Shown here piece by piece: positions 26,444-36,284 of a stretch of 64,000 bases of DNA; within the stretch, counting starts at the first letter, position 1; each line of letters opens with the position of its first letter. The DNA comes from Anaerolineae bacterium UTCFX2. Lineage in GTDB: Bacteria > Chloroflexota > Anaerolineae > Anaerolineales > UBA4823. Made by a program: the position numbers and the translations under genes. Location of the stretch: assembly GCA_002050125.1 (NCBI GenBank), contig MWTA01000032.1, positions 1-64,000 of the forward strand. Reading direction: 5' to 3'. Below the pieces are notes generated by a model, which was not told where the DNA came from, made no database searches, and was given only the letters and a program-made list of their open reading frames with translations.

Positions 26444-27544
26444 ATGCCGCATATTTATCCATTTACCGCAATCGTTGGTCAAGACCGCATGAAGCGCGCC
26501 CTGGTTCTAAACGCGGTGAACCCGCGCATCGGCGGCGTGCTGATACGCGGCGAGCGCGGCACGGCAAAGTCCACCGCGGCGCGCGCGATGGCGGCGCTGC
26601 TCCCAATGATTGAGGTCTATGCCGATTCTCCTTTCAACGACGACCCGAACGAACCCAATACCTGGTCGGATTGGGTGAAAGAACAGATTGGATATGGAAA
26701 ACAACTGCAGATCGTCCGGCGGCAGATTCGGTTTGTCGACCTGCCGGTCAGCGCGACCGAGGACCGGGTTGTGGGGACGCTGGACATCGAAAAAGCAATC
26801 CAGAAGGGCGAGCGGCATTTCGACCCGGGCGTGCTTGCCGCGGCAAACCGCGGGCTGCTCTATATCGACGAGGTCAACCTGCTGGACGACCATGTGGTCG
26901 ATCTGCTGTTAGATTCAGCCGCGATGGGGGTCAACATCGTCGAGCGGGAGGGGATATCCTTTTCGCACCCTTCGAGGTTCATCCTGGTCGGCACAATGAA
27001 CCCGGAAGAGGGGGATCTGCGACCGCAGCTCCTGGATCGATTTGCCCTTTCGGTGGAGATCCACGGCATCCGGGATGCACGCGAGCGGGTGTTGATTATG
27101 CAGCGCAACCTGGACTTTGAGGAAGACCCGGACGGCTTCTACCAAAAATGGGAAGCCAAAGAGCAAGAGCTTTCCAGACAGATCGAACAGGCGCGGCTGC
27201 TGCTGGATAAAGTTAAATATACCAATCGCGATTTGATCGCAATTGCATCGCTGACCTCTTCGCTCAACGTCGATGGTCATCGGGCTGACCTGGTGATCCT
27301 CAAGACCGCCCGCTCCCACGCGGCTTTCGAAGGGCGTTCCACGATCAATGAGCGCGATATCGCCCTGGCGGCTGAACTGGCGCTGCCGCACCGGATCAAG
27401 CGCGGACCCTTCCATCAAGCTGAGATGACGATGGAAGACCTGCAGGAACGCATCGAACAACTCCAGGGCGCTGCCTCCACCCAGAACGAAGTCGAGCCTA
27501 TTCCAGACGAGGAACAAACCAGCGAAAAAAAAAAGAGCCGGTGA
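26444..27544 (+). CDS. Magnesium-chelatase subunit I-like AAA+ ATPase
   Basis: 366 residues. AAA+ core: TAIVGQDRMKRALVLNAVNP, Walker A LIRGERGTAKST, RFVDLPVSATEDRVVGTLDIEKAI, Walker B GLLYIDEVNLLDD, and LVGTMNPEEGDLRPQLLDRFAL with the arginine finger. This is the ChlI/BchI pattern, including the insertions of magnesium or cobalt chelatase motor subunits. A Glu/Lys-rich tail ends the chain. The next gene is a ChlD-like VWA protein overlapping it as GTGA. No large chelatase subunit (ChlH/BchH/CobN) is in the window, so the client is unknown. Transcribed away from rpsA; TATAAT at 26341-26346 may be its -10. Confidence 0.88.
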   Translation: MPHIYPFTAIVGQDRMKRALVLNAVNPRIGGVLIRGERGTAKSTAARAMAALLPMIEVYADSPFNDDPNEPNTWSDWVKEQIGYGKQLQIVRRQIRFVDLPVSATEDRVVGTLDIEKAIQKGERHFDPGVLAAANRGLLYIDEVNLLDDHVVDLLLDSAAMGVNIVEREGISFSHPSRFILVGTMNPEEGDLRPQLLDRFALSVEIHGIRDARERVLIMQRNLDFEEDPDGFYQKWEAKEQELSRQIEQARLLLDKVKYTNRDLIAIASLTSSLNVDGHRADLVILKTARSHAAFEGRSTINERDIALAAELALPHRIKRGPFHQAEMTMEDLQERIEQLQGAASTQNEVEPIPDEEQTSEKKKSR

Positions 27545-28488
27545 CCGCGGAGATTTCGGAAGAGGACTCTAGCCGTCCGCCGGCTGAGCCGTCCCGCCAG
27601 AGCGCATTCGATCAGATGAGCACGAACTGGTGGGAGGGGGGTGATAAGGTCAAGATCGGGCAGACGTTCCTGCCGCGCAAGATTCAAAACCCCTTGGACC
27701 GGATCAACCGCCGCTTCGGCGGCAGGCGGTCGCGCACCTACACCGAACGCAAGCGTGGTCGCTATATTCGCTCCCGCCCGGCTGGCGGCAAAACCGACGA
27801 CCTGGCGTTTGACGCCACGCTGCGCGCTGCAGCGCCGTTTCAGAAGGAGCGTCAGGAACAGCGTAAACGGGTGGCATTCGCGATCCGGCGAACCGACTTC
27901 CAGCGCAAAGTGCGCGTGAAGAAAGCCGCTAACCTGATCTTGTTTGTGGTGGATGCTTCCTGGTCGATGGCGGTCGCCGAACGCATGGCGGCGACCAAAG
28001 GCGCCATTCTTTCACTGCTAACGGATGCTTACCAGCGCCGCGACCGGGTTGGGTTGGTGGTCTTTCAAAAGAACAAGGCAACCCTGATCCTGCCGCCGAC
28101 CAACTCGGTTCAACTCGCGCAGCGGGCGCTGGCGGACATCCCGGTGGGGGGCAAAACGCCGCTTTCGGCTGGGCTGCTCATGGCTTACGAAGTGATCGAA
28201 AAAGAGCGTCTCATCCATCCGGATGTGAACCCGCTCATCATCTTGCTTACGGATGGCGCCGGCAACGTCTCCATGACCAGCCTGCCGCCGCAGGAAGAAT
28301 CCCGCCGGCTGGCTGAGCAAATTGCCGAAACAGATATTCGCAGCGTTGTGATCAACATGGAGCACGTGGCTTTCGATCAAGGTCTGGCGCAAACTCTGGC
28401 GGATCATTTGAAATCTCCCTGCTACACGCTGAGCGAACTCAAAGCTGAGGCGCTCTACCAGAAGGTGCGCGAAGAAATGGTCGCCTGA
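27541..28488 (+). CDS. VWA-domain protein, ChlD/BchD C-terminal-like
   Basis: 315 residues. The GTG start overlaps the preceding stop as GTGA. A basic N-terminal half (Arg-rich RFGGRRSRTYTERKRGRY) leads to a von Willebrand A domain with a full MIDAS: DASWS in VVDASWSMAVAERM, Thr in GGKTPLSAGLLMAYE and Asp in ILLTDGAGNVS. This corresponds to the C-terminal part of ChlD/BchD, here without its own AAA+ half, paired with the ChlI-like ATPase. Such two-gene units are related to MoxR/VWA chaperone systems that insert metals or remodel complexes. Ends at the edge of the origin-like region. Confidence 0.86.
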   Translation: MTAEISEEDSSRPPAEPSRQSAFDQMSTNWWEGGDKVKIGQTFLPRKIQNPLDRINRRFGGRRSRTYTERKRGRYIRSRPAGGKTDDLAFDATLRAAAPFQKERQEQRKRVAFAIRRTDFQRKVRVKKAANLILFVVDASWSMAVAERMAATKGAILSLLTDAYQRRDRVGLVVFQKNKATLILPPTNSVQLAQRALADIPVGGKTPLSAGLLMAYEVIEKERLIHPDVNPLIILLTDGAGNVSMTSLPPQEESRRLAEQIAETDIRSVVINMEHVAFDQGLAQTLADHLKSPCYTLSELKAEALYQKVREEMVA

Positions 28489-28546
28489 GTTCGAACCCTC
28501 ACCTTTAGCTAGATTATCTGACTCATGGGGGTTGTTTCCTGGGGGA

Positions 28547-28592
28547 TTCATTATATATGTATGAATATATTAGTTAATCGTAGTCTTAGTAG
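28547..28592. other. Putative DNA unwinding element with DnaA-trio-like triplets
   Basis: 28547-28574 is almost wholly A and T. It is followed by the in-register triplets TAA TCG TAG TCT TAG TAG (28575-28592), four of which fit the DnaA-trio pattern, and then GGGC (28593-28596) abutting a DnaA-box-like 9-mer. Confidence 0.6.
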
Positions 28593-28596
28593 GGGC

Positions 28597-28605
28597 TGTG
28601 GATAT
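28597..28605 (-). promoter_or_regulatory. DnaA-box-like 9-mer
   Basis: TGTGGATAT on the plus strand reads ATATCCACA on the minus strand, one mismatch from TTATCCACA. It adjoins the GC cluster and triplets. The overlapping TGTGGAGAA at 28605-28613 (TTCTCCACA on the minus strand) is another one-mismatch copy. Confidence 0.6.
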
Positions 28606-28792
28606 GTGGAGAACACCCAATTTGGGTAAGCTGCACCCCGAGAGGCAGGGCTGACCTCCGTGCGAGCGCTACATTTGGCGGTTTCGGCGAATTCATTTCT
28701 CCACCGGCGGACTGGGGAGTAAGCCGGAAGGAATCGGAGTATTCTTTATACCCACAAAGACCAGACGGGATTTGGGAACGATTCGCGGGCGC

Positions 28793-28808
28793 CCCCCATA
28801 TATGGGGG
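28793..28808. repeat. Perfect 16-base palindrome CCCCCATATATGGGGG
   Basis: Perfect inverted repeat between the two DnaA-box groups. Near-copies of the same C3-4/W8/G3-4 design occur at 28944-28959 and 56761-56776. Could bind a dimeric protein or extrude as a cruciform. Confidence 0.6.
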
Positions 28809-28864
28809 TGGCATGACTGCCCAGGAACCGGACAAATTCGGGGGTTTTCCCCAACCCGCGCAAG

Positions 28865-28894
28865 TTATCCACAGTTTTTCACAACTTATCCACA
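28865..28894 (+). promoter_or_regulatory. Three tandem DnaA boxes
   Basis: Perfect TTATCCACA at 28865-28873 and 28886-28894, with TTTTTCACA (fits the relaxed TTWTNCACA) at 28875-28883 between them. Start-to-start distances are 10 and 11 bases, so all three face the same side of the helix. Confidence 0.85.
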
Positions 28895-29059
28895 GTTTTT
28901 GGGGGGATCAACGCTCATCCAGGTCTAGACAAGTGAACGCTGACCCGTATATATAGGGGGTGGTGGGGCGACTGCTGGTTGAATTGGTGTAACCTGCGGC
29001 TAAAATCTGCATCTAAAAGTGAGCGTACAAGCAACAACATTTACTCAAGGAGACATCGG

Positions 29060-29446
29060 ATGGAAATGACAATCGATTTTCCCGGCGGAGCGCGGGTTGA
29101 CGCTCATTTTGGGGGTTTCACGGTTCAAACCGACCAGCCGCCAGCCGCAGCGGCGCCCACCCCGTTTGCCACCTTCCTGGCTTCGATCGGGACCTGCGCG
29201 GGGATATATGTGCTTGGTTTCTGCCAGCAGCGCGGGCTGCCAACAGAAGGAATCCGGATTATCCAGCGCATACACGCCAACCCATTGAACGGAATGATTG
29301 GCAAAATCGATTTGGAAATTCAAGTTCCAGCTGCTTTTCCGGAGAAATATCTGCCGGCGCTGGTGAAAAGCGCCGAGTTGTGCGCGGTGAAAAAACATCT
29401 CGAGCAGCCGCCGCGGTTTGATGTTTTTGCCCGGACATCGGTATAA
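29060..29446 (+). CDS. OsmC/Ohr-family protein
   Basis: 128 residues; AAGGAG at 29047-29052 fixes the ATG at 29060. OsmC fold with the two redox cysteines in standard context: Cys46 in FLASIGTCAGIYVLGF and Cys108 in KSAELCAVKKHLEQPP. These members reduce organic hydroperoxides through the Cys pair. The N-terminal strand pairs IDFPGGARVDAHFGGFTVQTDQP are typical of the YhfA-like subgroup. First gene right of the origin-like region. Confidence 0.87.
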   Translation: MEMTIDFPGGARVDAHFGGFTVQTDQPPAAAAPTPFATFLASIGTCAGIYVLGFCQQRGLPTEGIRIIQRIHANPLNGMIGKIDLEIQVPAAFPEKYLPALVKSAELCAVKKHLEQPPRFDVFARTSV

Positions 29447-36268: not shown

Positions 36269-36284
36269 TGTTTCACGTGAAACA
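36269..36284. promoter_or_regulatory. parS: parS site (ParB centromere-like site)
   Basis: TGTTTCACGTGAAACA is a perfect match to the chromosomal ParB-binding consensus TGTTNCACGTGAAACA; the palindrome extends two bases further each side (36267-36286). In bacteria such sites cluster near the replication origin and seed ParB/SMC loading. parA and parB are not in the window. Confidence 0.93.

Follow-up and report, generated by a model that had tools for sequence, protein, structure and literature searches.

Whether the chromosome of Anaerolineae bacterium UTCFX2 starts its replication at a site apart from dnaA was the question raised by one intergenic region in the 64,000-nt stretch of its DNA that was analysed (the window). 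The original prediction had placed in this gap, on the minus strand, a DnaA box, a GC cluster, DnaA-trios and an AT-rich tract in the order of a basal unwinding system (BUS), with three phased DnaA boxes to the right. Both the intergenic nature of the region and the order of its elements were confirmed, and the parts of the module and its surroundings are as follows.

28489–29059, no strand: intergenic region with the predicted oriC, between a VWA-domain gene (27541–28488) and an OsmC-like gene (ATG at 29060)
28546–28590, no strand: putative AT-rich unwinding tract that overlaps the trios (80% AT)
28573–28592, plus strand: DnaA-trios, read 3′ to 5′ leftwards from the GC cluster as GAT GAT TCT GAT GCT AAT
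28592–28596, no strand: GC cluster (minus strand GCCCC)
28597–28605, minus strand: BUS-proximal DnaA box ATATCCACA, with exactly the same box in 40 of 46 homologous BUSs
28605–28613, minus strand: DnaA box TTCTCCACA, sharing one base with the proximal box
28793–28808, no strand: perfect palindrome CCCCCATATATGGGGG, not repeated exactly elsewhere in the genome; its place in homologous origins is fixed
28845–28853, plus strand: first and degenerate member of the phased array, TTTTCCCCA, spaced 20 nt from the next box
28865–28873, plus strand: perfect DnaA box TTATCCACA
28886–28894, plus strand: perfect DnaA box TTATCCACA, 21 nt past the previous box
36269–36284, no strand: parS site TGTTTCACGTGAAACA, at the ends of two convergent genes; the genome has no other exact copy

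Read along the minus strand, the module is TTCTCCACATATCCACA-GCCCC-TACTAAGACTACGATTAACTAATATATTC, in which two overlapping DnaA boxes are followed by the GC cluster, the in-register trios and the AT-rich tract; the second box (TTCTCCACA) is an addition to the elements originally listed. The spacer between the proximal box and the trios is 4–5 nt, inside the 16-nt limit for a BUS, and the AT-rich element, which adjoins the boxes, is the maximum of the window (top 0.003% of its 45-nt stretches). The phased DnaA-box array lies 235–290 nt away from the BUS. Its two perfect boxes, 21 nt apart, stood as predicted, but the weak box predicted between them (about 28876) is not conserved in relatives and was dropped from the array; the conserved third element is the degenerate TTTTCCCCA at 28845, with which the array shows the same 20 + 21 nt spacing as in relatives. 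An extra minus-strand TTATCCACA, absent from the window, is located about 115 nt from the BUS in Longilinea (L327:10017–10025) and several homologous origins.

The clustering of DnaA boxes is denser than chance. Among 300 simulated order-1 Markov sequences of 64 kb (19.2 Mb), none contained tandem boxes, a full BUS or double boxes, while the window contains one of each. Moreover, a search of the whole genome (2.92 Mb, an 83%-complete assembly of 111 contigs) returned a single match for the BUS pattern and a single one for the phased double box.

This arrangement resembles the BUS of B. subtilis oriC (incC boxes #6/#7 plus DnaA-trios), with tandem boxes, a short GC-rich spacer, trios beginning with GAT, an AT-rich tract and a distal DnaA-box subregion. 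Unlike that system, the boxes here overlap by one base, the middle base of the trios is A or C, a palindrome lies between the BUS and the distal array, and the module is not beside dnaA. The same element order is shared with origins in DoriC and in a survey of 2,070 origins, which found a BUS in 85% of them and GAT as the commonest trio next to the box, and whose main text does not mention Chloroflexi (PMC8287927).

The module recurs among relatives of the order Anaerolineales. A strict pattern consisting of the tandem boxes plus the first trio (TCCACANATCCACAN{4,6}TAC) was matched in 26 of the 201 genomes of the order, representing eight families and always with one match per genome, versus a single match of the reversed pattern in all 201 genomes. 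With a looser pattern, matches were obtained in 36 of the 121 genomes from the Longilinea family, a few of them by chance, and the phased double box was present in 32 of 41 relatives (reversed control, 0). As many genomes of the order are without the strict pattern, this form of the module is not universal. Its internal distances are constant while the flanking genes vary: the neighbours are the VWA and OsmC genes in the window and spoVS plus dnaN in Longilinea, and in several family members MFS-like or lipoprotein-like genes (named by eye) are inserted beside it. The OsmC neighbourhood was tried and rejected as an origin marker, since a BUS was nearby at just 8 of 80 OsmC loci; the neighbourhood is thus not fixed, and the origin module sits in shifting gene contexts, independent of dnaA. 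In one genome (G246), three identical BUS-like sequences (CCACATATCCACAGTTACTA; L286, contigs C55, C82 and C86) were found, versus a single copy elsewhere, which could reflect a repeat or arise from the assembly.

The trios were compared across 46 distinct BUSs, using trios 2 to 5 (184 trios), which are outside the constraint of the search pattern; eight looser-pattern matches resembling chance were removed by eye beforehand, and the sequences are related and not independent. The middle base was A in 53%, C in 40%, G in 3% and T in 4% of the trios (local background, 28/21/24/27%), with A or C in 93% overall, while the first base was G in 75% and the third T in 88%. Matches to N[AC]T averaged 3.39 of 4 in register, versus 0.26–0.28 in the other two registers. 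The survey had searched for (.A.){3,}, that is, at least three consecutive 3′-NAN-5′ trios within 16 nt of a DnaA box (PMC8287927), and this rule is satisfied by 18 of the 46 origins, compared with 21% of random stretches. Because the middle base is A or C and not A alone, the published rule misses 28 of the 46 origins, including that of the window (a run of two); under 3′-N[AC]N-5′, the window has a run of six, and 44 of the 46 origins have at least three in-register trios. On this evidence, the module of the window appears to work like a BUS, yet it fails the strict published definition.

The DnaA of this genome consists of domains I, III and IV, and its alignment to B. subtilis DnaA (8btg) revealed that the equivalents of Asn187, Ile190, Ile193, Arg202 and Glu228 are kept. 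All five of these trio-contacting residues are also unchanged in each of the 24 relatives checked. In B. subtilis, cytosine is tolerated in place of the central adenine, the amino group on both bases being read by Asn187, and the authors noted that this tolerance raises the possibility of further recognised trio sequences (PMC10721633). The frequent breach of the strict NAN rule could also be read as a sign that the region is a true origin opened in the E. coli manner, by array-docked DnaA at an AT-rich duplex-unwinding element, with the trio-like triplets being incidental. We consider this unlikely, as the triplet periodicity runs over five repeats in one register, a middle A or C is exactly what the B. 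subtilis substitution tests permit, and every trio-contacting residue of DnaA is kept. With the trios taken as functional parts of a BUS, these natural sequences bear on a question left open in 2023, namely whether the A-to-C tolerance of B. subtilis trios is used in nature. An A-or-C code, if true, would lend evolutionary support to amino-group recognition of the middle base, and it suggests loosening the rule of origin finders from NAN to N[A/C]N.

Six family members share a further conserved 21-nt double DnaA box, which has no BUS and coincides with the start of a gene for a DUF92 membrane protein, usually near a moaA-like radical SAM gene (L079:9808–9837, L080:10068–10097, L085:10174–10203, L086:9981–10010, L088:6416–6445 and L091:9777–9806). 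This double box is possibly a DnaA-controlled promoter or a titration site. DnaA clusters outside origins therefore occur in this group, and the module in the window might by the same token be a DnaA-controlled promoter or a DnaA-titration site (of the datA or DARS type) and no origin. Such a role is most improbable: a BUS and a consistent skew flip are both missing from the DUF92 site, whereas the module keeps its spacing despite changing neighbours and comes with trios, an AT tract and a nearby parS.

GC skew also points to an origin at the module. Of 19 module sites, 15 had negative skew in the 7.5 kb to the left and positive skew in the 7.5 kb to the right, compared with 15.7% of random points. 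The mean skew change at these sites was +0.084, versus 0.000 (sd 0.051) for random points, and none of 20,000 resamples was as high, a figure that is indicative since four of the 19 sites were placed by hand via DnaA-box clusters and the genomes are related. One relative (G281) showed no flip within reach.

For a chromosome-wide view, the main contig of the isolate Longilinea arvoryzae KOME-1 (G230; 4,145,241 nt, ~4.1 Mb), which carries the same module, was examined. In 20-kb samples, one arm, running from 2.9 Mb past the end of the contig to 0.65 Mb, has negative skew, and the other, between 0.667 and 2.6 Mb, has positive skew. Such a layout of two arms, with the terminus at roughly the opposite side, is that of a normal chromosome. 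Over the continuous interval of 560–800 kb, the minimum of cumulative skew is at 664,869 and the BUS at 677,395, a distance of 12.5 kb; the homologous module of a relative is thus located at the skew minimum, as is typical of oriC, with ~12 kb of positive skew to its left. Two further genomes (G016 and G013) were discarded as whole-chromosome maps, both being patchy and G016 having runs of N (joined contigs); in another (G035), skew was noisy and the strict pattern detected no BUS.

In the window, raw skew flips only locally, from −0.032 to +0.054, and is mostly positive again over 1–19 kb; third-position skew, once balanced for gene direction, keeps its sign. The argument from a switch in majority gene direction, which the original prediction had put forward, is weak. 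As the sign change in Longilinea is also displaced by ~12 kb, this pattern weakens the case for an origin and does not overturn it. Chromosome-wide skew of this genome itself is not computable from its fragmented, incomplete assembly.

The surroundings of the module were compared with those of known origins. An exact parS, a common though not universal feature of origin regions, lies 7.4 kb from the module here, and parS pairs are found at 13 kb in Longilinea, 4.6 kb in G084 and 10.8 kb in G011, so that in four genomes an exact parS is 4.6–13 kb away, as at ParB-parS loci near oriC. Unlike such a locus, parB is remote, at 3.26 Mb in Longilinea; relatives have it, whereas a search of this incomplete genome yielded none. 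Adjacency to dnaA, a common but non-defining trait of oriC, is seen neither here nor in Longilinea, where dnaA is at 3.83 Mb, ~1 Mb from the module around the circle. An origin elsewhere would have been indicated by a dnaA-dnaN locus with a denser group of DnaA boxes; the dnaA of this genome, on a different contig, has a single lone box within the 15 kb read. Since its contig is one piece of a metagenomic assembly, the module might instead be the origin of a second replicon or of an integrated plasmid. This is extremely unlikely: housekeeping genes surround the module (by-eye assignments are clpC, ribosomal protein S1, ssb and ychF, with S1 domains detected), no plasmid Rep gene was seen by eye, and the same module is on the 4.1-Mb main contig of Longilinea near the skew minimum.

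Taken together, the recurrence of the module, the skew flips at 15 of 19 sites, the Longilinea minimum, the adjacent dnaN in Longilinea, the nearby parS and the location of dnaA elsewhere argue that the module is an oriC with a BUS, unlinked to dnaA, in line with the original prediction; judged from sequence comparison, this stretch is very probably the chromosome replication origin of an uncultured Chloroflexota bacterium, far from dnaA. It belongs to a known kind of oriC, from which it departs in two ways, by its A-or-C trios and by the fixed palindrome. With it, an order composed of mostly uncultured Chloroflexota gains a well-supported oriC; the literature searched contained no such map.

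We are highly confident in 28489–29059 as a chromosomal oriC where DnaA on the tandem boxes and array would open the AT tract through a filament on the trios, with the array looped in. By analogy with the BUS mechanism, base capture and looping distal box of B. subtilis (PMC6669920, PMC8287927, PMC10721633), DnaA would bind the overlapping minus-strand boxes (28597–28613) and the phased plus-strand array (28845–28894). From the tandem boxes, a DnaA-ATP filament would extend leftwards onto the plus-strand trios, capturing bases one and two in each (G followed by A or C), and the tract at 28546–28590 would open. The distant array would supply DnaA to the BUS, probably via a loop, and the palindrome at 28793 would probably be bound by a dimeric factor aiding loop formation or control. 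The anatomy of this scheme is supported by conservation, whereas its dynamics are modelled on B. subtilis.

The palindrome between the BUS and the array recurs in other origins. In 44 origins, the best match to CCCCCATATATGGGGG averaged 12.57 of 16, versus 9.12 (sd 0.12) for shuffled versions, and strong matches are mostly at 195–207 nt (on the scale of the match scan) in two families. Furthermore, CCCC-N4..8-GGGG was found in 17 of 46 origins and in 31 of 896 control stretches. Across 30 genomes there are 26 occurrences of the palindrome core CCCCAKATMTGGGG, 16 of them within about 0.3 kb of a BUS or the double box; the other occurrences include four in G009, so the palindrome is not strictly origin-only. 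Its identification as parS was rejected, as canonical parS is present separately. The symmetry suggests a dimeric protein as the binder, which may be a new initiation regulator. On the whole, we favour the proposal that Anaerolineales origins combine a natural A-or-C trio code (3′-G[A/C]T-5′) with a dedicated palindrome, CCCCC-ATATAT-GGGGG, between BUS and distal array, to which a probably lineage-specific regulator or architectural protein would bind. Partial copies of the palindrome are also present, at about 38–40, 67–69 and 166 nt (on the same match-scan scale) in other origins and at 28948–28960 (TATATATAGGGGG), right of the box array, in the window.
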